Shown one piece after another: positions 1 to 39,653 of a stretch of DNA of 40,865 bases (position 1 is its first letter; the number at the start of each line of letters is the position of its first letter). The DNA is from an uncultured Methanomicrobiales archaeon (lineage in GTDB: Archaea; Halobacteriota; Methanomicrobia; Methanomicrobiales; Methanospirillaceae), in contig CAILCG010000021.1 of the NCBI GenBank assembly GCA_903832665.1, forward strand, positions 1 through 40,865. Reading direction: 5' to 3'. The notes under the pieces are model-generated. The model ran no database searches. It saw only the letters and a program-made list of their open reading frames with translations, and had not been told where the DNA came from. The position numbers were made by a program, and so were the translations under genes.

Positions 1-35
1 AACCTGATATTCCGGCTCGCTAATTTCTTTATTGT

Positions 36-109
36 CTCCTTCCTATTTGACGACACATCAAAGGAAGGAGATGCTGTACCTTAGATCTTTCGGTTGTCGG
101 TACATCTCT
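36..109. terminator. two adjacent hairpins downstream of the helicase gene
   Basis: Two inverted repeats lie back to back just past the minus-strand helicase stop. The first pairs CTCCTTCC (36-43) and TTTGA (46-50) with TCAAA (58-62) and GGAAGGAG (63-70), leaving a 7-base loop and a 2-base bulge. The second pairs GAGAT..GTACC (about 69-80) with GGTACATCTC (about 99-108). They could end helicase transcription, or mark the edge of the rearrangement that truncated the gene. Seen directly; the function is inferred. Confidence 0.4.
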
Positions 110-124
110 TTTGGATTAGGATTT

Positions 125-1789
125 CTACAGAGCAGATTTTTCAAAAACTTTAAAGCGGGAATGATAATCTTCGTTCAGCCATGTGACCGGAGAGAGGGTG
201 CCTAGATCAGTGAGGAACTTTTTGAACGTATCATTGTCCCGGTACTGCTTCTTGACATAGAGGATCCCGATGTCCTGGGGCTGCAGGGATATGTCGATCT
301 CATTGAAGGGCACACTCCCGTTGAGAAGAACATTAGTAATATTGAAGAGCCGGTTGCATTCATCGGCATGATCCTTGCATTTGAGCAGGATCGGTTTTGG
401 CCCGCTCCGGATTGCCTGGCTGGGATCGACCGGCACAATCGAGATGGAATCTCCGTTGTCTTTTACATTTTTCATGGTGAAATGTGCAGCAAGCCGTAGG
501 ATCTCTTTGGTATTACGGTAATTCCGGTCAAGGTCGAATACCTGATGGATGGTCCGGCCAATAGCCTTTATGCCCAGGGATTTCCAGCTCACCGAATCGA
601 TCATCTTTATTCCCTGATTGCCATCGCATACAACCAGCAGATCCCCGTCGAGCGGATCATTGAGCGCTTCTAAAATACAGGAGAACCAGACCGAAGGGAA
701 GTCCTGTGCCTCGTCTAGAAGGATTGCATCATATTTACGGGCATCTCCACCATGATTCCTGAGATGCTCCAGCAACCGGCTTCCCAGTGCAGGATCATCC
801 TCAAGCTTCCCAGTGGAGGGATCTTCCTTCCGGGGCTGAATGCTGTTATGTTTTACCCAGCCGTCGAAATGGAAGACATTGATCCGTGGATACTCCTTCA
901 ACACATGTTTCAGATACACACTTAGGACAACATTGTAACAGAGCAGCAGGATCCGGGCTCCCGGTTGCCGGTCATGCAGCCATTTGGCCCGCGATATGAG
1001 GAGAACGGTCTTTCCGGAGCCGGCTACCCCATAAATAATTCGATGGCCTTCACCAATCTTCCGGGCATTGTTTTCCTGCCGGCGGTCGAGCACAACCAGG
1101 TCAAAGCATTTCTCTGCTTCATCTTCAGTCAGAGACTTGGAGGGCAGGTAACTGAGAATAATTTCCGGGTGAAGAATAGACCGGATGACATCCACCTGTT
1201 GTGGAGTAAAAGGCTTGATCTCCCAGAATGGATTGAAAAATCTTCGAAGTGTTGTCCGTAGTTCTTCCGCAGATGCATTTTCAAAGGCTACGAATTCATC
1301 CCGGTAGAGGGTATTTTCCGGGCGGAACACTTCGTACAGGTTGTGTTCCTTCCTGCGTTCGATATTATCCCGCGAGATATTGGAAAGAACTACGAAGTGG
1401 CAGAACGGGAAGATGAACTTGTCTTTGTACTTGCCTTCAGGATTCAACAAAAAAGATCGGTTTGGGCTTTTCTCGCAGATTCTTGCAAGTCTCCATTGGT
1501 ATCCCTGTGCCTGTGTGAGCGGATGAAGTTCTTTTCTTTCCCGGTTGTCAAATCGTGTGACAACTTCCGTATCGCTAGCCCGGAGGATATCATCATAATA
1601 CCATCCCTTAACTTCAATTACAATGATACCCAGGTCGGGCGCAATCACAACAAAATCAGGATGACGATTGTCAATATTTGGTTCATAATACACGAGATAA
1701 TCGTCAGGAAGCTTCTTGAGAAGAGCAAATGTGCGTTCTTCGCCACGGCTGGCATTCGAAGGTAGACGATCAGGAATAAATTCAGCCAC
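125..1789 (-). CDS. NERD-domain superfamily 1 helicase, C-terminally truncated
   Basis: Residues about 15-130 form a NERD (nuclease-related) domain, with the core D45, E59 and K61 in the stretch PDFVVIAPDLGIIVIEVKG. A UvrD/Rep-like ATPase follows: Walker A GVAGSGKT at 254-261, Walker B DEAQD at 359-363 and an LDRNYRNT motif at 420-427. NERD-UvrD proteins are usually linked to DNA repair or to defence against foreign DNA. The protein stops at 554 residues, just where the second RecA domain would supply the S/T-hxx-KGLE and VALTRA motifs. None of the three frames of the next 120 bases on this strand restores them. The helicase is therefore probably incomplete and may be inactive, though the NERD and ATP-binding parts remain. 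The start is GTG at 1789, with GAGG eight bases upstream. Family call firm; cellular role inferred. Confidence 0.85.
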   Translation of the reverse strand: MAEFIPDRLPSNASRGEERTFALLKKLPDDYLVYYEPNIDNRHPDFVVIAPDLGIIVIEVKGWYYDDILRASDTEVVTRFDNRERKELHPLTQAQGYQWRLARICEKSPNRSFLLNPEGKYKDKFIFPFCHFVVLSNISRDNIERRKEHNLYEVFRPENTLYRDEFVAFENASAEELRTTLRRFFNPFWEIKPFTPQQVDVIRSILHPEIILSYLPSKSLTEDEAEKCFDLVVLDRRQENNARKIGEGHRIIYGVAGSGKTVLLISRAKWLHDRQPGARILLLCYNVVLSVYLKHVLKEYPRINVFHFDGWVKHNSIQPRKEDPSTGKLEDDPALGSRLLEHLRNHGGDARKYDAILLDEAQDFPSVWFSCILEALNDPLDGDLLVVCDGNQGIKMIDSVSWKSLGIKAIGRTIHQVFDLDRNYRNTKEILRLAAHFTMKNVKDNGDSISIVPVDPSQAIRSGPKPILLKCKDHADECNRLFNITNVLLNGSVPFNEIDISLQPQDIGILYVKKQYRDNDTFKKFLTDLGTLSPVTWLNEDYHSRFKVFEKSAL

Positions 1790-5012: not shown

Positions 5013-5565
5013 GAGTACCTCCAAAATACGCCCGTAAAATGCCCCGATTTCCCCCTTTAACGCGGTTTTGAGGTAATAATTCGGGAAAATGCAGTAATAA
5101 TTCAGTCAAGTCTGGGCGCTTTTACGTCGGAGAATCAGAGGTAATAAGTAGCAGTATTTGGAAGGCGAAAAAAGTGGGGGATCATAGTTCAGGAGGGGGT
5201 CATCTTTTTACGACTAGGATCACGGGTAATAAAAGATTTTTTTAGAATAACTCACTTTTCAGCAGCCAGAGAGTTACCTCAAAAATAAGACCGATCCGGG
5301 CCCGGATTTCCCATTTTTCCCGTAACTTGAGGTAATAATTCGGGAAAATGAGGTAATAATTCAGTCATAAGGGTATGGTTTTACGGCGGAGAACTAGAGG
5401 CAATAAATAGCAGTATTTGGGTGGCGGAAACACCGGGGGATCATAGTTCAGGACGATGCATGCTCTAAACCGGAAATACGGACAATAAATGATCTTTTTC
5501 AAAAATGAGACCGCTGCCACGAGAGGGATTAAAACGGGTACGATATTCCCATTTTTGCGGGATCA
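5013..5565. repeat. tandem 259-bp direct repeat, two units plus a partial third
   Basis: The block AGGTAATAATTCGGGAAAAT occurs at 5071 and again at 5330. Each copy is followed by a second GTAATAATTCAGTCA, then TTTTACG.CGGAGAA, TAGCAGTATTTGG and GGGGGATCATAGTTCAGGA in the same order. The period is 259 bases. A third, partial start (CAAAAATGAGACCG ... ATTCCCATTTTTGCGGG, 5500-5562) matches the unit start at 5279. No coding potential is seen. It lies directly upstream of the small membrane protein gene and could carry its regulatory region. Confidence 0.75.
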
Positions 5566-5796: not shown

Positions 5797-5826
5797 AACT
5801 CATTGCCTTTACGGACCCCCGGTAAC

Positions 5827-5887
5827 TGTACCCCCCATAAAGATATCCCATTAGTATTATGCTCCGTGGAAAATCATAGAATAGAAG
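5827..5887 (+). promoter_or_regulatory. conserved tbp leader, copy 1
   Basis: The 61 bases before this start align without gaps to the 61 bases before the second tbp start (6755-6815), with 43 identical positions by my count. Best conserved are TGTACC, ATAAAG, TTAGTATTATG, AATCAT and AGAAG next to the ATG. Conservation of spacing suggests a shared promoter or leader rather than mere remnant similarity. Confidence 0.5.
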
Positions 5888-6442
5888 ATGGCTGATAAAA
5901 AGTACGAATCCTTAAAAATTGAGAACATCGTCGCATCCGGAGCCATTGCCGAGACCATTGATCTCGTTGAGCTCTCGGCCAAGGTTCCCAACTGCGAGCT
6001 TAACAAGAAACGGTTTCCCGGCGCAGTTTACCGCATCACCGATCCCAAGATTGCAGCCCTGATCTTTTCATCCGGAAAGGTCGTGCTCACGGGTATGCGA
6101 AACCGCGATGCCCTCACCAATGGCCTTGCCGTCATCACCAAATCGTTAAATGATGCAGGCATCGAGACGCTCAAAGAGCCCAAGGTCGGCATCACCAACA
6201 TGGTCTGCTCATACGATCTCGGCAAGTACATCAACCTCAACAAGATCGTAGTCACGCTTAATGTGGAGAATATCGAGTACGAACCCGAGCAGTTCCCCGG
6301 CCTCGTGTACCGGATCAAGGATCCCAAGATCGTGGTCCTCATCTTCTCATCAGGAAAGATCATCCTCACGGGCGGCAGGAATCTTGAAGATATCCGCAAG
6401 GGTCTTGGCGTGCTTGAACAGAAACTCGAAAGCATTATGTAG
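5888..6442 (+). CDS. tbp: TATA-box-binding protein, copy 1
   Basis: This 184-residue protein is the general transcription factor that bends promoter DNA and recruits TFB and RNA polymerase. The two TBP direct repeats are clear: residues about 10-95 (IENIVASG ... FPGAVYRI ... LIFSSGKVVLTG) and about 101-184 (ITNMVCSYDLG ... FPGLVYRI ... LIFSSGKIILTG). The FPG and F-SSGK-LTG phenylalanines that kink DNA are present in both halves. The length is standard for archaea. A nearly identical paralogue lies 373 bases downstream in the same direction; the C-terminal repeats differ at one residue while the N-terminal repeats differ at about 16. Start is ATG with GAAG just ahead. Confidence 0.97.
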   Translation: MADKKYESLKIENIVASGAIAETIDLVELSAKVPNCELNKKRFPGAVYRITDPKIAALIFSSGKVVLTGMRNRDALTNGLAVITKSLNDAGIETLKEPKVGITNMVCSYDLGKYINLNKIVVTLNVENIEYEPEQFPGLVYRIKDPKIVVLIFSSGKIILTGGRNLEDIRKGLGVLEQKLESIM

Positions 6443-6724: not shown

Positions 6725-6754
6725 GAAAAACGGGGGTACCGGAAGGGGAAAAAA

Positions 6755-6815
6755 TGTACCTATAATAAAGCTTGTCCGTTAGTATTATGATCAAGGGAGA
6801 ATCATTCTAGAGAAG
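6755..6815 (+). promoter_or_regulatory. conserved tbp leader, copy 2
   Basis: Ungapped counterpart of 5827-5887. Shared blocks include TGTACC, ATAAAG, TTAGTATTATG and the AGAAG next to the ATG. The upstream sequences beyond this block differ between the two genes, so they may respond to different signals while keeping a common core. Confidence 0.5.
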
Positions 6816-7370
6816 ATGGCTGACAAAAAGTACGAATCATTGAAGATAGAGAATATCGTTGCATCCGGTGTCATCGCCGAATCCATCGATCTTGTGGAAC
6901 TCTCCAGCAAGGTCAAGAACTGCGAGCTCAATAAGAAGCGATTCCCCGGTGCAGTCTATCGGATCGAGGATCCTAAGATTGCCTCCCTGATCTTCTCTTC
7001 GGGCAAGATCGTGCTGACCGGCATCCGCAACAACAAGGCACTTGTAGACGGGCTTGCGATCATCATCAAATCCCTCAACGATGCCGGTATTGCCACGCTC
7101 AAGGAACCCAAGGTTGCGATCACCAACATGGTCTGCTCCTATGATCTCGGGAAGTACATCAACCTCAACAAGATCGTAGTCACGCTCAATGTGGAGAATA
7201 TCGAGTACGAACCCGAACAGTTCCCGGGTCTCGTGTACCGCATCAAGGACCCCAAGATCGTTGTCCTCATCTTCTCTTCAGGAAAGATCATCCTCACGGG
7301 CGGCAGGAACCTTGAAGATATCCGCAAGGGTCTTGGCGTGCTCGAGCAGAGACTCGAAAGCATTATGTAA
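6816..7370 (+). CDS. tbp: TATA-box-binding protein, copy 2
   Basis: A second 184-residue TBP has both repeats intact (10-95 and 101-184) and the same start sequence MADKKYESLKIENIVASG. Compared with copy 1, the differences cluster in the N-terminal repeat (for example T51E, R73N, D74K, T77V, N78D), with only K178R in the last 83 residues. Some haloarchaea and methanogens keep several TBPs, giving promoter-specific transcription; that role here is inferred. Tandem duplication followed by gene conversion of the 3' half explains the pattern. Both copies look functional. Confidence 0.97.
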   Translation: MADKKYESLKIENIVASGVIAESIDLVELSSKVKNCELNKKRFPGAVYRIEDPKIASLIFSSGKIVLTGIRNNKALVDGLAIIIKSLNDAGIATLKEPKVAITNMVCSYDLGKYINLNKIVVTLNVENIEYEPEQFPGLVYRIKDPKIVVLIFSSGKIILTGGRNLEDIRKGLGVLEQRLESIM

Positions 7371-7654
7371 AGACCAGAAACAAAAAATATTTTTTCAGGC
7401 TTTACCAAAAGCCCGTCAATCTCTTCTCTGTAACCCGGCTCCCCGGGCGCTCATTCAAATGCTTGTTTTCCTCATCTTTATTATCCAAGTTCGCATGCAT
7501 CCAGATGATGCTTTCCCGGGTTCGTGTCATGGTTGGCGGTGCAGAGGAAAAATGCAAAGATCTGATAAGTGCGGTTCTCCATTACCGGAGGATTTTTCCT
7601 AAATATCAAAGCACATAATTATCTAATTCTGGATTTTTTTCTCATTTTTCAATT
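7371..7654. other. intergenic downstream of tbp copy 2
   Basis: A T run (AAAATATTTTTTCAGG) soon after the stop may end tbp transcription. A 36-codon frame from about 7508 (MLSRVRVMVGGAEEKC...) has no ribosome site and no family, and I do not call it. Nothing else is supported. Confidence 0.3.
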
Positions 7655-7773
7655 ATGATGAACCCCGCCGCCCCCGACGGGGCGCCCCCGCGGCGGATCA
7701 ATGACCAAAAAAAAGAAAGGCGAAAAAACTTTGCCCCGTTATCGCTCGGAGAGGCCCTGATGCAGGAATCATC
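7655..7773 (-). repeat. family C MITE-like element, copy 1 (short form)
   Basis: This copy starts ATGATGAACCCCGCCGCCCC and ends CAGGAATCATC, so the ends are inverted (GATGA/TCATC). The GC-rich core CCGACGGGGCGCCCCCGCGG and the block GAGAGGCCCTGATGCAGG are the reverse complement of those in the copies at 33985 and 39321. The middle is shortened to about 119 bp. No ORF. Confidence 0.7.
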
Positions 7774-12924: not shown

Positions 12925-13134
12925 GCGATGTTCCCCACCCCCTGCGGGGGTTGCTCGGCCGCCTCGCTGGGGAATGAAGTTAAGCCGGGAAATTTTTCGA
13001 TAACCGGTATTATCGAAATAAAAGGATCCAGGGGATTTTGAAATAAAAAACCTGTCTGGACCGCCGCGGGGGCGCCCCTTCGGGGGCGGCGGTTTCATCG
13101 CAAAAGAGGGTATGGGGGCATCAGCCCCCATCAT
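12925..13134 (+). repeat. family C MITE-like element, copy 2
   Basis: Ends are GCGATG (12925-12930) and CATCGC (13096-13101). The left arm has CCCCACCCCCTGCGGGGG and GCTCGGCCGCCTCGCTGGGG. The right arm has CCGCCGCGGGGGCGCCCC then GGGGGCGGCGG. It is followed by the outer hairpin GGGTATGGGGGCATCAGCCC that also trails three other copies. No ORF. The gap 13135-13379 holds nothing else I can support. Confidence 0.75.
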
Positions 13135-16698: not shown

Positions 16699-16929
16699 TT
16701 TTTTGCTCATTAAAAATCATCATTTTTCGTTACTTCCTAGCGCCTTTCGGGAAATAGGATAGTGACCCCCTCTCTCCCCAAGAGGGGGAGGCATCCCAAG
16801 GGGGGCATCCCCTTGACCCCCTTTCGGAAGTTCTCGTCAACTATCAAATGTTATTGTTCTATGGGGGATTCCCGTACGGTTGGGGAGCATGAAATGCAAA
16901 TTTCCCGCAAAGATTTCCCCTGAAAATCA
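16699..16929 (+). repeat. family B MITE-like element, copy 1
   Basis: This copy shares its interior with the copies at 27969 and 34249: a CTAG near the left end, TAGTGACCCCCTCTC, AGAGGGGGAGGCATCCCAAGG, CATCCCCTTGACCCCC, TTCTCGTCAACT and TATTGTTCTATGGGGGA. The left end TTTTTTGCTCATTAAAAATC and the right end AGATTTCCCCTGAAAATC are degenerate inverted ends. There is no ORF of its own. Confidence 0.65.
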
Positions 16930-16946
16930 CACTTTTCATGTATGAT

Positions 16947-17101
16947 GATGGGGATTGAGACCCCCATGCCCCCAATAACGATGAACCCGCCGCCCCCGGA
17001 GGAGCACCCCCGCGGCGAATCAATGACTTAAAAGAAAAATACAGGAAACCGTCTTGCCCCACCGTGGCTTGAAGAGGTCCCGAGCCAGGGGGGAACATCA
17101 T
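16947..17101 (-). repeat. family C MITE-like element, copy 3
   Basis: This copy is in reverse orientation. The outer hairpin (GATGGGGATTGAGACCCCCA) comes first, then CGATGAACCCGCCGCCCCCG and GCACCCCCGCGGCG, then a short middle, then GAAGAGGTCCCGAGCC and the terminal GGGGGAACATCAT. It sits 17 bases from family B copy 1. Confidence 0.65.
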
Positions 17102-17250
17102 ACCGCCACATGATGTCACCGATTTTCACCAGAACTCAATTTTTTAACAGAATTTTCGCACAATTTCCTTGACCCCAATACCGGAAGAGACCTTTGGATG
17201 CTGGGAATGAATAAAAAAATATTTGTTGATATTTTTCGGGTTGAAAAAGA

Positions 17251-19624: not shown

Positions 19625-19831
19625 GCGATGGTTCCCACCCCCTTCGGGGTCGCTCGGCCGCCTCGGCGGGGCCTCGCTGGGCAAAGCGGTTAATTTTTTA
19701 ACGATTTTGCGGTTGGAAAAATAAATGAGATACTGTGACGATAAAAAATCATAATTCTCGGGACCATTTTGCCGCCGTCGGGGGCGGCGGGGTCATCGCA
19801 AATGGGGGTATGGGGGCATCAGCCCCCATCA
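19625..19831 (+). repeat. family C MITE-like element, copy 4
   Basis: Ends GCGATG (19625-19630) and CATCGC (19794-19799) are exact inverted repeats. The left arm is CCCACCCCCTTCGGGGTCGC with GGCCGCCTCGGCGGGG. The right arm is GCCGCCGTCGGGGGCGGCGG. It is followed by the outer hairpin ATGGGGGCATCAGCCCCCAT. Confidence 0.75.
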
Positions 19832-27671: not shown

Positions 27672-27917
27672 ATGAACTTAGGAAGTCTCGGTTGTATGGG
27701 CGGGGCAGTTGGAAGTTACCTTTCAACCCCCGAAGGACAGGAAGCAGCAAAGAAATACCTCGCATCTCCCGAAGGAATTGCCATGCTCAAGGGATTTGTC
27801 GGAACCCCGGAAGGCAAGAAGACCCTTCTCAGTGTTCTCCCGATGGTCCTTGACGGGCTCAATCTTCCCCCGGCGATCAAGGATGCAGTTGTAAGCGCTC
27901 TGAGCTCTGCCCTGTAA
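27672..27917 (+). CDS. small TPEG-repeat protein, 81 aa
   Basis: The protein contains three spaced copies of an (S/T)PEG motif (STPEGQEAAKKYL, ASPEGIAMLKGFV, GTPEGKKTLLSVL), each starting a short helix of 15-16 residues. It ends with DAVVSALSSAL. No Cys, membrane helix or enzyme signature is present. The regular repeats suggest a small alpha-solenoid-like protein, perhaps an oligomerising or capping protein. GGGAAGTG lies about ten bases ahead of ATG 27672. I know no functional assignment. Confidence 0.7.
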   Translation: MNLGSLGCMGGAVGSYLSTPEGQEAAKKYLASPEGIAMLKGFVGTPEGKKTLLSVLPMVLDGLNLPPAIKDAVVSALSSAL

Positions 27918-27920
27918 GGC

Positions 27921-27963
27921 AGCCGGTACCCGGAAAAAATCCCGGGATATGGCCTTTTTTTAT
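27921..27963 (+). terminator. terminator after TPEG-repeat gene
   Basis: ACCCGGAAAAAATCCCGGG makes a short stem-loop. TTTTTTTAT follows at about 27954. It lies directly between the gene and the left end of the family B element. Confidence 0.5.
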
Positions 27964-27968
27964 AAAAA

Positions 27969-28220
27969 TTTTGCTCTGGAGAAATCATCGTTTTCTCGTG
28001 ACTCGCTAGTCCCCTTAAGATATAGGAGAGTGACCCCATCTCTCCCCCAGAGGGGGAGGCATTCCAAGGGGAGCACCCCTTGACCCCCAAGAAGTTTTCG
28101 TCAACCTTCTGATATTATCGCTATATGGGGCATGCCTGAGCGGCGGGGGCAGAAACACGAAGTGCGTGAGCCCCCAAGAGCGGCATCTTAATTCCCAGCA
28201 AGGATTTCTCCGGAGCAAAA
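27969..28220 (+). repeat. family B MITE-like element, copy 2 (best ends)
   Basis: The left end TTTTGCTCTGGAGAAATC (27969-27986) and the right end GATTTCTCCGGAGCAAAA (28203-28220) match as inverted repeats at 17 of 18 positions. The interior shares CTAGTCCCC, GTGACCCCATCTCTCC, AGAGGGGGAGGCATTCC, GAGCACCCCTTGACCCCC and CTATATGGGGCA with the other copies. The length is 252 bp and there is no ORF of its own. This is the clearest evidence that the family is transposon-like. Confidence 0.8.
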
Positions 28221-28356
28221 AATTAGCTCTGGAGAAATCCTTAAGAGAGACACCCGGACATCTTGGGGGTCTCCCCTTCTGGGGGTTGGGGGGGTCTTAC
28301 TCACAGGTGACGAAAAAGAACAAACAGATAAGAGATAAACAGGATTTCTCCTGAAA
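28201..28356. repeat. adjoining inverted repeat and nested element
   Basis: AGGATTTCTCCGGAGC (28201-28216) is repeated inverted as GCTCTGGAGAAATCCT (28226-28241), a 16-bp stem with a 9-base loop and one mismatch. A further AGGATTTCTCCTGA at 28341-28354 makes 28226-28356 a second, 130-bp unit with the same kind of ends. Its interior is CCC/GGG-rich and unrelated to the main element. The remaining 135 bases before the ppx remnant hold a T run (CATTTTTTTAA) and no gene. Confidence 0.65.
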
Positions 28357-28491
28357 AATTGCAGGAACTTTGAGACCTGGTACGGGAATTTTTTCCCCAC
28401 ATTTTTTTAATGGAGGTAAAGTCCATCGCCCCAAAGGGGATTCCGGGTGCGAGCACTTTATTCATGGATGTTTCAATAAAAACAAAAAATT

Positions 28492-30053
28492 TCAGAGAAT
28501 TTCAAACACGATCTTTTTGCCAAACACTTTCTCAAAGGCCTTCCTCTCACTCTCGATACCCCAGATCTCGAGCTGGCAGTCTCCCCGGGCAACGATCTCC
28601 AGGCGGACCTCATCGGCATCGGAGCCGGTGAACCGGACATGCTGGATCAGGGCCGCGTGGCTTCGGTCGAGACTTTCGCCAAGCCGTATGAAGGTGGCCA
28701 GCATCCTCAGGGCTTCGCGCTCGTGCGGATCGAACACAAGGATCTCGGGATCCTTCTTCCGGAGGCTCTTCTTGCGGTGGAAGCGGGCAAGGTTTGCCAT
28801 AAAGTTCACCTCTTTCTGGTCAAAGCCGAGCAGTTCGGAATTTTTTATGATATAGTAGGAATGGGCCTGGTGATTGTTGTAGGAGATGAACGAGCCGATA
28901 TCATGGAGGAAGGTCGCGTACTCCAGGAATTCGCGTTCCGCATCGCCAAAAGTGTGGAGGTTCTGCTCGCGGGCGCTGTCGAACATATCCAGCACCAGCG
29001 CTGTTACCGTCCGGGCATGGACCTCGTTGATGCCGCAGGACCGGCCCAGCTGGAGCACGCTGCGCTGGCGCGGGGAGAGTTCTCCTAACAGGGGAAACTC
29101 ATCCATGCGGGAGAGATAGTCTACGAGCAGGCCATCTTGCAGCCCCCGTCCGGTAACTGTGACTGAATCGAGCGAGAGTTCCTGCATGAAGGTGTCGAGG
29201 ATTGCTGCGCCCGGCACGATGATATCGGCCCGCTCGGGGTTGATACCGGGAATCTTCCGCCGCTGCTCGACCGAAAGGGCGCAGATGATGCCAATGGCTT
29301 TTTTGAGATCCCGGTGGGTGAGGACGGGATCGGCGCTGCCGTTCGGGTGCAGCTTGTGGGCAATCTCGGCAAGATTCATCGCTGTGCCGGAACTCGCAAT
29401 GGCACAGGCCGGCGAGAGCTTGTGGATCTTCTTCACCGACCGGATGATGCTGTTCTTTACGTGCTGCTGGATCTTTTTGTAGCGCTCGGGAGTGATGGAG
29501 CCTGTCTCGGTCTTTGGGGTATAGAGATTCGACAGGCGGATCGAGCCGAGCTTGAAACTTTCAAGAAACTGATACTCCCGCTCGTTTCCCACCGCGATCT
29601 CGGTGTTTCCACGCCAATGTCAATGAAAAATGCATCCTTTCCTTCCATGTGCATGCCGCTCGAGACCCCGAGATAGATGATGCGGGCTTCTTCCTGGCCC
29701 GAGATGACCCGGATATCGAGCTGGGCTTCCTAGCGCAGCCGGTGCAGACTCTCCTGCTGGTTTCCGGCTTCCCGCATCGCAGAGGTCGCGACGGCAACAA
29801 ACTCCTCGGTTTTGAACGTCCGGGCAAGTTCGGTGAAGGTTTTGCAGACAATGACCGCCCGTTCAACGGCTTCAGGCAGGATCACCTCCTCTTCAAATTC
29901 CCCCTCGCCAAGCCGGACCTGCTGCTTCTGCCGGGTCAGGATCGTGTAGGAATGATTGGGGTTGAGGCGGACGACCAGCAGGCGGATAGAGTTGGTACCG
30001 ATATCGATGAATCCCACCACGTGGCCATCCGGGCCCGGGCGTTTCATCTTCAC
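28492..30053 (-). pseudogene. ppx: exopolyphosphatase/GppA phosphatase, broken twice
   Basis: Read across both lesions the gene encodes about 520 residues of the Ppx/GppA family: the N-terminal ASKHA fold has VGFIDIGTNSIRLL, and a C-terminal HD-like domain has FLHDIGSFISYNNHQAHSYY. The first lesion is a TAG at 29730-29732 inside LHRLR|EAQLDIRVISG, where family members have a sense codon. The second is a one-base deletion near 29611-29615 that turns the expected IDIGGGNTE motif into IDIGVETP. The intact fragments are 30053-29730 and 29592-28492. The start is GTG 30053 or ATG 30047, overlapping the CHAD-HD stop. Ppx would hydrolyse polyphosphate or (p)ppGpp. If both changes are genuine, the operon lacks this activity. 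Confidence 0.85.
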
Positions 30054-31681
30054 CGGATCACCAGGTTCCTGCCAAATGCCCGGGCAAAGAGGGTGGATTT
30101 GGTCCGGGCATGCTCCTTTTCAACCGAGACGTCACCAGCTGCGGTCAGGTCGCAGGAGATCTCATCACCGATCACGCAGTGGACTTCCTGCACGGTACCG
30201 AGATGGAGGTAATCGAGCCCGTCGGCAATCCGGAGCAGGCTGGCAATGCGAAGAGTCTTTTCCTGGTACGCGGGAGAGAGAAGAGTGTAGAAAGCCTGGG
30301 ATTCCGGAGAGACGTTGCCCCGGTGGGCAAACGCGACCAGGGCAATGACTCCCCGCTCTTCGAGATCCAGCGGCAGGCGTTCGTCAGCAACTATCATGGC
30401 GGCACTGCGTAAGTTATGTGCCTTTCGTCCTCCCTTCCAGCCGATATCATGCAGCATGGCTGCACATTCGAGCAGGAACCGGTCCCACGGGTCCATCAGG
30501 TGGAATGGCTGGAGGCTGTCAAAGAGCATGAGAGAGAGCCGGGTCACCTGCCGGCTGTGCTGGAGACCCGCAGGATAGTCCCCGGCTATGAGATTTGCCG
30601 CAGCCAGGATCCCGGTCTCGTTCACCGGGACATGCGGGCGGAAGTTCATCTTCCGGCCGTCAGTGAGGGTCGTCCGGAGAGAATCCCAAAGCCCTGTCCG
30701 TTTGAGGGTGGCCCAGTATCGGACAAAATGCCGGTACAGCTGCTGGCGCTCCCGCTCCTTCTCGGCCAGGAAGATCTTCAGGCTCGAGAGGGTACGGGTA
30801 TCGGGACGTTTCTCTTCGTTATCGGACCGGAGGAGTGAGCGTTCGCGCAGGAGCAGCCGGATCACCGCATCGATCCAGACATCGCAGTCATGCAGGTCCC
30901 CCAGGATCTCCTGAACTTCCTTGACGCGTGCGATCGGTTTTCTCAGGTTCAGGCGGTACACGGGCGCATAGGTTTCGAGGGTATAGCGAAGCTTTTTTGC
31001 CGCAATACGGGTGGCGTGGTGCTCCGCAACCGCTTCGGGGTGGGAGACCCAGGGTTCGAACGCGAGGAGCGTCTCCAGCCGTTCTTCTATCCGCAGGGCT
31101 GCAACCGGGGCGATACCATAGGCAAACACCTGCCGCTGAATACCACGTAACGGGGGAAGCGGGCGGCTGAAGGCATCCCGCATAGAATCGATCGCGTGAC
31201 TCTTCTCCAGGCTGTCGAGCGCCGAGACCACGTCTTTCTGGAGGGCGCCCCGGCGTTTCTGGAGACTGGCGACAAGGTACCGCACCGCGGGAGTCGTGGG
31301 TGGGTCCCCCAGGGGGACCGGGTTCTTCGCCTTCCAGGTCTTCTCCGCACGTTTCTGGTATTTAGTAAGGTACGCGATCTGGACATCTGTATCCCGGGCC
31401 TCACCCAGTGCCCGGGTGATTGTCCGGAGTTCGTCTGACCACAGGTTATAATTTTTCTGCGGAAAGCAGGATGCAAAGAGAGGAAGGGCGGCCCGGAGTC
31501 GGCGGGAGGCGACCCTCATCCGGTGAATGTACTCGATATCTTCGGCCGCCCGGACCCCGTCAGTCTCTTTGGCAAAGGCTTCCAGCAGGGGGAGCAGGCG
31601 CCCGTGGGCAAAATAACAGGCCGCCCGTACAGGTTCCCGGGGTTTTTCTGTCCCGGGAGAAAGGGCTTTACGGAACGCCAT
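30050..31681 (-). CDS. CHAD-domain and HD-domain protein
   Basis: The protein is 543 residues. A CHAD domain occupies about 15-300, with the conserved His-rich helical repeats (YIHRMRVASRRLRAALPLF; HHATRIAAKKLRYTLETYAP; LGDLHDCDVWID). CHAD domains bind polyphosphate. The C-terminal 200 residues carry a Ppx/GppA-type HD domain (LLECAAMLHDIGWKGGRKAH; IADGLDYLHLG). I start at ATG 31681 because the longer reading upstream is a shadow of ppk1. It overlaps ppk1 by 14 bases, and its stop TGA at 30050 sits inside the ppx start, so all three genes are coupled. It is a likely polyphosphate-binding or hydrolytic partner of the kinase. Intact. Confidence 0.9.
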   Translation of the reverse strand: MAFRKALSPGTEKPREPVRAACYFAHGRLLPLLEAFAKETDGVRAAEDIEYIHRMRVASRRLRAALPLFASCFPQKNYNLWSDELRTITRALGEARDTDVQIAYLTKYQKRAEKTWKAKNPVPLGDPPTTPAVRYLVASLQKRRGALQKDVVSALDSLEKSHAIDSMRDAFSRPLPPLRGIQRQVFAYGIAPVAALRIEERLETLLAFEPWVSHPEAVAEHHATRIAAKKLRYTLETYAPVYRLNLRKPIARVKEVQEILGDLHDCDVWIDAVIRLLLRERSLLRSDNEEKRPDTRTLSSLKIFLAEKERERQQLYRHFVRYWATLKRTGLWDSLRTTLTDGRKMNFRPHVPVNETGILAAANLIAGDYPAGLQHSRQVTRLSLMLFDSLQPFHLMDPWDRFLLECAAMLHDIGWKGGRKAHNLRSAAMIVADERLPLDLEERGVIALVAFAHRGNVSPESQAFYTLLSPAYQEKTLRIASLLRIADGLDYLHLGTVQEVHCVIGDEISCDLTAAGDVSVEKEHARTKSTLFARAFGRNLVIR

Positions 31682-33770
31682 GATACCAGCAACCACTGTG
31701 TTCCAGGAACCATGCCTGCGCATTGAGGGGCGTTGTCCCTTCCGGCGGGTGCCTGCGGACATACGTACCGTCAGCCTGCAGCATCCGGAGCTTGCAGTTG
31801 TCCGAGAGCTGGACCGGAATAATTTTCTCCAGGATCGCCTGCCGCAATTCGGCATCCTGCACCGGGAAGAGCACTTCAACGCGCCGGTCAAGGTTACGGG
31901 GCATCATGTCGGCGCTTCCCAGGTACACCTCTTCATTGCCGCCATTGTGGAAATAGTAAATCCTAGCATGTTCCAGGAACCTGCCGACAATGGTGGTCAC
32001 TTCAATCGTATCGCTGATACCAGGGATTCCTGGACGCAGGCAGCAGATACCCCGCACCTGGAGATCGATCTTCACCCCGGCCTGCGATGCCCGGTAGATG
32101 GCGGCGATGCAGATCGGATCGACAAGGGCATTCATCTTGAAGATGAGGTGGCCTCCTCCCTTCTCCCGGTGCGTGGCGATCTCGCGCTCGATCATCGCGA
32201 GCATCCCCTTGCGCAGGGTGACCGGCGCAACAAGGAGTTTTAAGTAACTCTCAATCCGTGCGTAGCCGGTGAGGAAGTTGAAGAGGTTCGCCACGTCCTC
32301 ACCGATCTGCTTATCGCAGGTGAGGAACCCGAAGTCCGTGTAGATGCGGCTGGTGGTGGCATTGTAATTGCCGGTGCCGAGATGCATGTACCGGCGGATG
32401 CCGTCTTTCTCCCTCCGCACCACCATGCAGAGTTTTGCATGCACCTTGAGACCCACGACCCCGTAGACCACGTGCACGCCTTCGTGCTCAAGGGCCCGGG
32501 CCCAGCCGATATTGTTCTCTTCGTCAAACCGGGCCTTGAGTTCGATGAGGGCCGCAACCGCCTTGCCATTCTCCCGCGCCTCCATCAGCGCCTTGACGAT
32601 CGGTGAATTCGAGCCAACCCGGTAGAGGGTGATCTTAATTGCCAGGACATCCGGGTCCTTTGCTGCCTGCCGGATAAAATTGACCACGGGCGTGAAGCTG
32701 TCGTAGGGCTGGTAGAGGTGGATGTCATGCCGGCGGATGGCCGTGAAGATATCCCGGCCGTCGCCCAAATCCTCCGGGAGCGACTGGGTAAAGGGGGCAT
32801 CCTTGAGATCCGGGCGGTCCAGCGAGAGGAGCTGCATGAGATCGGCCATGCCCACGGGGTGGCCGATGCGGTGAATCATCGAGGAGGTGACAACCAGTTT
32901 CTTCTCGAGCATGTTGCAGATGCTGTCATGCATGGAGGACTCGACTTCGCTGCGGACGGGATTGCCGTGGGCCCGCTGTTCCATGATCTCTTCGACCGTA
33001 GTGAGCAGGTCCGATGCATCGTCCACTTCGATCTCGGGATCTGCGTCCCGGGTGATCCGGAAGGGATAGGACCCCACGACTTCGAGCCCGCAGAAGAGCA
33101 TGTCGAGATGGGCCGCGATAATATCCTCCAGGTACACGAAATGGACCAGTGCATCGTTTCGCCCGCTCGTCCCGGTGTCAGGAATGCGGATGAGGCGCGA
33201 GAAGAGGTTGATGGGGACCTTGACGCGGGCAAAGAACTCTTTCTTGTTCTGGTCGCGGACAATGATCGCCAGGTTGAGCGAGAGATTGGAGATGAAGGGG
33301 AACGGATGCGAGCTGTCGAAGGCAAGCGGTGTGAGCACCGGGTACACTTCGTCTACAAAGAAGCGGTGCATCGCCGCTTTCTGGCTCTCGTCCAGGTCAT
33401 TATACGTATGGATATGAATGCCCGCATCGGCAAGCTTCGGCAGGATATCATTGTGCCAGCAGTCATATTCCGTGGCCAGGTCCGGCAGGAGGGCCGACTG
33501 GATCCCGTCCAGCTGCTGGGCCGGCGTCATCCCATCAGCAGGAAATCTCCGGACACCCTTGGTGTACTGGCGCTGGAGCCCCGAGACCCGCACCATGAAA
33601 AATTCATCAAGATTGTTGGAGAAGATGGAGAGGAACTTGACTCGTTCCAAAAGCGGGTGGGCAGGATCGAGGGCTTCATCCAGAACGTGGCGGTTGAAAC
33701 GTATCCATGCCAGTTCACGATTGATGTACAGTGAGGGATCTTCGAGAGAAAGTGTCGGGGCGGTATCCAT
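31668..33770 (-). CDS. ppk1: polyphosphate kinase 1
   Basis: PPK1 builds polyphosphate from ATP through a phosphohistidine intermediate. This 700-residue protein has the N-terminal YINRELAWIRFNRHVLDEAL and FSNNLDEFFMVRVSGL motifs. The catalytic histidine of the first HxK/phospholipase-D-like half is in YMHLGTGNYNATT, and the second half carries LGSADMMPRNLDRRVEVLFP. Length and motifs are complete. TTGTATACAA about 27 bases before ATG 33770 is a likely TATA element and AGGTG gives a ribosome site. First gene of the ppk1-CHAD-ppx operon. Confidence 0.96.
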   Translation of the reverse strand: MDTAPTLSLEDPSLYINRELAWIRFNRHVLDEALDPAHPLLERVKFLSIFSNNLDEFFMVRVSGLQRQYTKGVRRFPADGMTPAQQLDGIQSALLPDLATEYDCWHNDILPKLADAGIHIHTYNDLDESQKAAMHRFFVDEVYPVLTPLAFDSSHPFPFISNLSLNLAIIVRDQNKKEFFARVKVPINLFSRLIRIPDTGTSGRNDALVHFVYLEDIIAAHLDMLFCGLEVVGSYPFRITRDADPEIEVDDASDLLTTVEEIMEQRAHGNPVRSEVESSMHDSICNMLEKKLVVTSSMIHRIGHPVGMADLMQLLSLDRPDLKDAPFTQSLPEDLGDGRDIFTAIRRHDIHLYQPYDSFTPVVNFIRQAAKDPDVLAIKITLYRVGSNSPIVKALMEARENGKAVAALIELKARFDEENNIGWARALEHEGVHVVYGVVGLKVHAKLCMVVRREKDGIRRYMHLGTGNYNATTSRIYTDFGFLTCDKQIGEDVANLFNFLTGYARIESYLKLLVAPVTLRKGMLAMIEREIATHREKGGGHLIFKMNALVDPICIAAIYRASQAGVKIDLQVRGICCLRPGIPGISDTIEVTTIVGRFLEHARIYYFHNGGNEEVYLGSADMMPRNLDRRVEVLFPVQDAELRQAILEKIIPVQLSDNCKLRMLQADGTYVRRHPPEGTTPLNAQAWFLEHSGCWYHGVP

Positions 33771-33899: not shown

Positions 33900-34052
33900 A
33901 TGGTCTCTAGATACGAGCATGAACAAAGTGTTCGCATCGATGTAAGAAAACTGTGCAAGAAAATCAGTACCCTGATCTGGTGTAATGATGATCCCCCGCC
34001 TCAGGACCTCTCCGAGGCACAGCGGGGCAAGGAATGTTCCCTTTTTTGGTGA
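33900..34052 (+). CDS. possible 50-aa protein running into a repeat element
   Basis: ATG 33900 follows GGTGA at nine bases, a canonical archaeal ribosome site. The first half reads MVSRYEHEQSVRIDVRKLCK, a plausible basic helix; the second half is encoded by family C copy 5 and ends TGA 34050-34052. It may be a real small gene whose 3' end was replaced when the element inserted. No family recognised; low confidence. Confidence 0.25.
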   Translation: MVSRYEHEQSVRIDVRKLCKKISTLIWCNDDPPPQDLSEAQRGKECSLFW

Positions 34053-34196
34053 GGACTTTCAGAGAGCATCCCTCATTGTTCCGTGAAAATTTCAAACCCG
34101 TAACATGCTGTTTAAAAACCGTCCTGTACTATTACAAACCTAACCAGCATTGATCCGCCGCGGGGGCGCCCCGTCGGGGGCGGCGGAGTTCATCAT
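33985..34196 (+). repeat. family C MITE-like element, copy 5 (long form)
   Basis: Left end ATGATGATCCCCCGCCTCAG, right end GGCGGCGGAGTTCATCAT. It aligns with copy 6 throughout: ACCTCTCCGAGGCAC, CTTTCAGAG, ACAAACC.GTAAC, CGTCCTGTA and CATTGATCCGCCGCGGGG occur in the same order. No ORF of its own. Confidence 0.75.
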
Positions 34197-34248: not shown

Positions 34249-34510
34249 ATTTTCAGTTGAAATCATCATTTTCCAATTACTTGCTTGCTAGTTTTCATAG
34301 CGAAATGAAGAGAGTGACCCTATCTCTTTCACCCAGATGGGGAGAGATCCCGAGAGGAGCACCCCTTGACCCTCATGCGGAAATTCTTGCCAATCTTCTG
34401 ACATTATCGCTATAGGGGAGGTGGCGGGCGGCGATGGGGGGGAAACACGAAGTGGATGAATTTCTGCGAGCACTCCTCAATTGCCCGCAAAAATTTCACC
34501 AGAGCGAAAA
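34249..34510 (+). repeat. family B MITE-like element, copy 3
   Basis: The interior matches copy 2 (GCTAG, GAGAGTGACCCTATCTCT, GAGGAGCACCCCTTGACC, TCTGACATTATCGCTATAGG, GAAACACGAAGTG). The ends TTTTCAGTTGAAATC and AAATTTCACCAGAGCGAAAA are partially degenerate inverted repeats. It lies 52 bases from family C copy 5. The gap to 34584 contains nothing else. Confidence 0.65.
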
Positions 34511-39320: not shown

Positions 39321-39556
39321 GCGATGATGCCCCGCCTCAGGGCCTCTCCGAGGCACGGCGGCTTTCGTTTTTTTTACTGTAGCCTTTCAAAGACCCTTCA
39401 TCGTAGTTCTGTTCAGGTTTTACAAACCCGTAACGTGTTGAGAAAAATCGTCCTGTAATATTTCAGACATTGTACCGCATTGATCCGCCGCGGGGCGCCC
39501 TTCGGGGCGGCGGAGTTCATCCTAAATGGGGGCATGGGGGTCTCAACCCCCATCAC
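39321..39556 (+). repeat. family C MITE-like element, copy 6 (long form)
   Basis: Left end GCGATGATGCCCCGCCTCAG, right end GGGGCGGCGGAGTTCATC near 39504-39521. The outer hairpin GGGGGCATGGGGGTCTCAAC continues to about 39556. It matches copy 5 along its whole length. The last 97 bases before the next gene hold nothing else. Confidence 0.75.
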
Positions 39557-39653
39557 AATTTCCAAATGGGTATGGTTCCAGGAAAATCTGAATTAAATTA
39601 CAGGAAATCCGGAATAAATTTGTGTAAGAGGAAACCTTCCAAAAATAAAAAAA

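Follow-up and report, generated by a model that had tools for sequence, protein, structure and literature searches.

A highly probable IS5-type MITE in a most likely Methanoregula-like archaeon, bounded by the ends of an IS5-family element

Archaeal MITEs with IS5-family partners have been described by Kamoun et al. (2013, PMC3852290, Table 4), who listed elements associated with ISMac15, ISMma12, ISMba19 and ISMbu10. These MITEs have sizes of 140-252 bp and inverted repeats of 15-17 bp, and it is usually the ends alone which match the partner IS (PMC3852290). A DR of 0 or 3 is listed for them (PMC3852290, Table 4). Among the papers covered by a literature search, none relevantly joins the genus Methanoregula with MITEs. 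The window analysed in this study, i.e. the whole stretch of 40,865 nucleotides, is the entire contig C21 of an uncultured Methanomicrobiales archaeon, whose genome (2.88 Mb, 28 contigs) was searched along with it. The window harbors an element which is with high probability a non-autonomous archaeal IS5-type MITE sharing its ends with an IS5-family IS. Every MITE feature open to a sequence test was found: the element is short, lacks a transposase, possesses IS-like terminal inverted repeats (TIRs), occurs in multiple copies and is flanked by a target duplication of the same length as that of its partner. The features of the window that belong to this element and to related repeats are compiled in Table 1.

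Table 1. Coordinates of the element and of related features in the window
Feature	Position	Strand	Remarks
Short-form MITE copy, TIR to TIR, 246 bp	27972..28217	+	15-bp TIRs, 87% identical to family consensus
Left terminal inverted repeat TGCTCTGGAGAAATC	27972..27986	+	Agrees with TIR of IS5-family element
Right terminal inverted repeat GATTTCTCCGGAGCA	28203..28217	-	14/15 to TIR consensus
Left target-site duplication AAAAATTT	27964..27971	.	7/8 compared with right flank
Right target-site duplication AAAAATTA	28218..28225	.	7/8 compared with left flank
Conserved ~60-bp GC-rich two-hairpin core (GTGACCCC...CTTGACCCCC)	28026..28089	+	40 copies in genome
Probable second, older element abutting the first copy	28225..28483	+	Left TIR AGCTCTGGAGAAATC at 28225-28239
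Long-form copy	16704..17138 (end approximate)	+	B, A (16946-17027) and C modules between left TIR and decayed right TIR
Short-form copy with decayed ends	34250..34506	+	Sequence comparison
A-module fragment of long form	7650..7706	+	Followed by C-module palindrome near 7745
A-module fragment of long form	13061..13133	-	Module search
A-module fragment of long form	19775..19831	-	Module search
A-module fragment	34148..34194	-	C-module palindrome at 33987-34025
A-module fragment	39478..39558	-	C-module palindrome at 39323-39361
Truncated end of autonomous IS5-family element	1..134	-	Matches terminal 134 bp of C7 IS; contig breaks inside

The first-pass annotation of the window had described the element as bounded by inverted arms of 18 bp, TTTTGCTCTGGAGAAATC (27969-27986) and GATTTCTCCGGAGCAAAA (28203-28220). 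The arms indeed match at 17 of 18 positions, and an inverted pair of this quality spanning 200-260 bp is unique in the window and did not appear in any of 20 mononucleotide shuffles. However, the outermost three bases of each arm belong to the target duplication, an imperfect, A/T-rich sequence of 8 bp (AAAAATTT/AAAAATTA). Since this duplication takes in the outer TTT and AAA, the element proper extends from 27972 to 28217 and its TIRs comprise 15 bp. With merely 246 bp and a single overlapping ORF of at least 100 amino acids among those listed (27716-28090, minus strand), for which a Pfam search gave no match, the element does not encode a transposase, as had been stated before. On its right side it borders on what is probably another, older element, in which a TIR-like inverse was found at 28343-28357 and which ends with long-form 3' end sequence reaching to approximately 28483. 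This right boundary was set by eye from its likeness to the 3' ends of long forms.

To date three copies had been claimed, while the genome-wide comparison revealed approximately 40 dispersed relatives with 70-84% identity to the window copy. The same ends are also present at other loci of the genome, where the 15-bp TIR pattern gave 101 matches as against three for the pattern read backwards, which served as control. Both further copies, at 16.7 kb and at 34.25 kb, have the ordered interior that had been attributed to them as well as weaker ends; for the latter, the extent of 34249-34510 has to be narrowed slightly to 34250-34506. Flanking duplications were looked for in 30 elements possessing good TIRs at either end, of which 19 came from the genome under study and 11 from relatives, with one element entering the count twice. 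The 8-bp flanks of these elements revealed an identity of 0.783 compared to 0.466 +/- 0.031 for shuffled pairs (z=10.3), while much lower z values were obtained for 7 bp (z=3.7), 9 bp (z=4.3) and all other lengths (z at most 3.1). The duplications are thus exactly 8 bp long. Several of them are perfect without being simple A/T runs, e.g. CTGATTGA and GAAAAGAG in a parallel element of the relative G018.

A transposase gene enclosed by the same ends, as the first-pass annotation had proposed to look for, does exist. It belongs to the IS5 family and lies in an IS of 994-1008 bp which has the 15-bp TIR of the MITE and the 8-bp duplication; it is frameshifted in the genome under study and intact in relatives. 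The contig C7 terminates in a 994-bp element with the ends TGCTCTGTAGAAAACC and GGATTTCTACAGAGCA, whose IS5-family transposase is split by a frameshift and which is the sole IS copy spanned in this assembly. Many other contig ends of the genome stop approximately 100-140 bp inside a copy of this IS, leaving truncated copies behind, which suggests that a high-copy IS broke the assembly. At the left end of the window, the TIR GATTTCTACAGAGCA was identified at 120-134 in a truncated IS end. At the right end of the contig (40738-40865), a 13-bp unit (GTAAAATTCTCCG) is repeated in an array, and the assembly may have stopped there on this side. In relatives, intact IS copies of approximately 1 kb are flanked by perfect 8-bp duplications, e.g. 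ATTTATTC, CCTATTTC, CAAAATTT, GAATAATC and AAAAGAAG. The proteins encoded by the intact copies have 309-359 amino acids and reached 191-196 bits with the NCBIfam IS5 model (NF033579, cut-off 140); they also scored above the cut-off of Pfam DDE_Tnp_1 (PF01609). In the transposase of one relative (L170), the residues Y-(2)-R-(3)-E-(6)-K can be recognised within YPRRQLVENKFSVLKR. A duplication of 8 bp is a mark of the ISH1-like group within IS5, in which the partner IS with its 8-bp duplications may have its place.

The consensus of the MITE family and the IS ends are identical over 15-17 bp, and blastn of the element against the IS did not reveal any likeness beyond the terminal 13-19 bp. The identical TIR and duplication length might also be explained by a decayed full IS, in which case the element would have arisen from the IS5-family element by internal deletion and would not be unrelated DNA between its ends. 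A simple derivative of this kind was rejected for lack of interior similarity, and we regard this explanation as scarcely credible. By contrast, the interpretation as a non-autonomous mobile element, already given by the first-pass annotation, is supported by approximately 40 copies, their common ends, the 8-bp duplications and a transposase partner with the same TIR. According to this interpretation, the MITE would have retained nothing of an IS5-family IS except the ends needed for binding and cleavage, and these would enclose filler DNA that is rich in hairpins and unrelated to the IS. An intact IS located elsewhere would provide the DDE transposase, which would recognise the common TGCTCTGTAGAAATC ends and would insert the element between genes at A/T-rich sites, leaving an 8-bp target duplication. 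Judged from the sequences, the IS5 transposase probably mobilises the MITE in trans, and the MITE may be active or may have been so recently. An intact IS5-family transposase was seen in relatives; the copies of this assembly are frameshifted or truncated.

The repeat named family B by the first-pass annotation is genuine, but it turned out to represent a modular element in its short form; the longer form also includes the other GC-palindrome repeats of the window. Many copies in the genome run past the right end of the short form into two GC-rich palindromic modules, A (GGGGGTTGAGACCCCC plus CCGCCGCCCCCGACGGGGCGCCCCCGCGGCGG) and C (GCCGTGCCTCGGAGAGGCCCTGAGGC), beyond which the right TIR of the long forms follows as TTTCTCCAGAGCA or as a decayed version of it. 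The copy that had been reported for 16699-16929 is such a long form; it does not stop at 16929 but continues from 16704 to approximately 17138, with the decayed right TIR TTTTCACCAGAACTCA at 17123-17138. Upstream of the A module, the B core was found on the same strand in nine of the 34 matches checked, the remaining ones being fragments or other combinations. Non-autonomous elements linked to IS5 thus account, as complete forms or as fragments, for the approximately 40 B copies and for some of the A copies, which likewise number approximately 40. A parallel MITE in G018 (L149-L158) has the same TIRs and the same core but a different right module (ATGCTCCACGGGGCGAGGGTCGACAGACCCCGAGCGCCCGTGGCTCCAT); a transposase search of the G018 genome gave no match, even though this MITE is present. 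One copy of the genome under study (L205) contains the G018-type right module joined to A and C. These arrangements suggest that modules have been exchanged between elements. The short 246-bp form, in turn, probably arose by internal deletion of the modular form of approximately 450 bp. Elsewhere in the window, two 300-bp stretches (5824-6123 and 6752-7051), which are 74% alike and 928 bp apart, each overlap an ORF of 184 amino acids and likely represent a tandem gene duplication. Paired direct repeats at 5068-5194 and 5327-5453 are 259 bp apart (41 bp with 95% and 75 bp with 85% identity) and apparently intergenic.

GC-rich palindromic modules, each dispersed intergenically and occurring in varied combinations as do the B core, A and C, are reminiscent of REP/BIME-like repeats spread by a RAYT (Y1-type) transposase, and in this case the TIRs would be incidental. 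However, the 8-bp target duplications and the IS5 TIRs are rather in keeping with a transposase of the DDE type. Moreover, the Y1 transposase domain PF01797 is absent from the genome, while a control search detected it in five of 14 reference genomes. Spreading by a RAYT is therefore an extremely unlikely explanation for the element, for which the IS5-type MITE remains the best one.

The position of the copies in the genome was also considered. The neighbors of the window copy, a gene for an 81-aa protein and a gene for a Ppx/GppA-like protein, are 574 bp apart. The corresponding genes of two relatives are separated by only 55 bp (G007) and 53 bp (G014) and do not enclose the element, though these empty sites were resolved to the gene pair only, as divergence between the intergenic sequences is too high to define the joins at the level of single bases. 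The position of the element is thus not conserved, and the location beside the same genes in relatives which, according to the first-pass annotation, would have spoken for an RNA or regulatory function was not found. The Ppx/GppA phosphatase gene is part of a minus-strand polyphosphate gene cluster (28492-33770) that also comprises the genes for a CHAD/HD-domain protein and polyphosphate kinase. Downstream of the same ppx gene, the relative G021 (L212) possesses a different TIR-bounded element (CTGCCCTGGAGAAATC...TTTTCTACAGAGCA). Based on crude gene calls, the copies are intergenic and lie between ten convergent, 18 tandem and two divergent gene pairs, and in the tandem pairs their orientation is balanced (9 vs 9). 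Intergenic placement and balanced orientation fit insertion followed by the loss of harmful copies rather than a conserved regulatory part.

Intergenic copies with a well-folding core would also be compatible with a structured non-coding RNA or a cis-regulatory element, e.g. a 3'-end stabiliser or terminator, whose hairpins are kept by selection. On one strand, the core folds with -29.6 kcal/mol, which is a modest advantage (z=-2.0), and it is better conserved than the arms. On the other hand, Rfam gave nothing for the element at gathering scores in the window, where its scan detected an archaeal RNase P RNA, and a permissive search with three copies did not yield any hit above the gathering score. 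In an alignment of 30 copies, just one of 19 consensus pairs exhibited a kept two-sided change (covariation term +0.43). The Rfam searches at both thresholds, consensus folding and pair counts hence gave no support for a structured RNA. In addition, an RNA or regulatory element is at variance with the balanced orientation in tandem pairs and with the finding that two relatives lack the element in the corresponding intergenic region, and it would leave the TIRs together with the 8-bp duplications unexplained. We consider it very improbable.

Even for an IS5-type MITE, the core is the one feature left over by passive hitchhiking. Of 35 other genomes examined within the genus, 26 contain the ~60-bp core, as compared with none of 24 genomes outside the genus. 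In the collection searched, exact 30-bp matches to the core were confined to MAGs labelled Methanoregula sp. and Methanomicrobiales, which makes a Methanoregula-like methanogen the most likely host of the window. The identity of the core to the consensus is 90% compared to ~80% for the arms, and in some relatives it occurs without recognisable TIRs. Better conservation than that of the arms and an occasional lack of ends are not predicted for purely passive filler DNA. It is conceivable, although rather unlikely, that the core has a function or propagates on its own, as a module which is common to most of the genus and enters into changing combinations with further palindromic modules inside IS5-type ends. 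If this were true, the core would be either useful to the host, as a terminator or insulator making insertions tolerable, or a preferred capture substrate for the transposase.

The element is ordinary in kind and well supported, and it is apparently undescribed for the genus. Much of the repeat content of this genome can be explained by a single mechanism, and many contigs ending inside the partner IS suggest the same source for the breaks of the assembly. Annotators now have at hand the ends, the footprint and the partner of a MITE family which has apparently not been described before from Methanoregula-like archaea. Furthermore, the shuffling of modules is a small natural case for how MITEs acquire interiors that are unrelated to the parent IS. 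What the element has in common with the IS5-linked MITEs of PMC3852290 is the small size, the occurrence in multiple copies, the inverted repeats and a similarity to the partner which is restricted to the ends. What separates it from them, as far as can be compared by description, is another host genus, clear 8-bp duplications and an interior of GC-rich hairpin modules that also build up a long form of approximately 450 bp. With the intact IS5-family elements (NF033579) of approximately 1 kb in its genus, the MITE shares the TIR and the 8-bp duplication but neither a transposase nor any interior likeness. REP/BIME and other intergenic palindromic repeats are similarly dispersed, intergenic and composed of mosaics of GC-rich hairpins; the element of this study differs from them by its IS5-type TIRs, its 8-bp duplications and a host genome in which no Y1/RAYT transposase was found.
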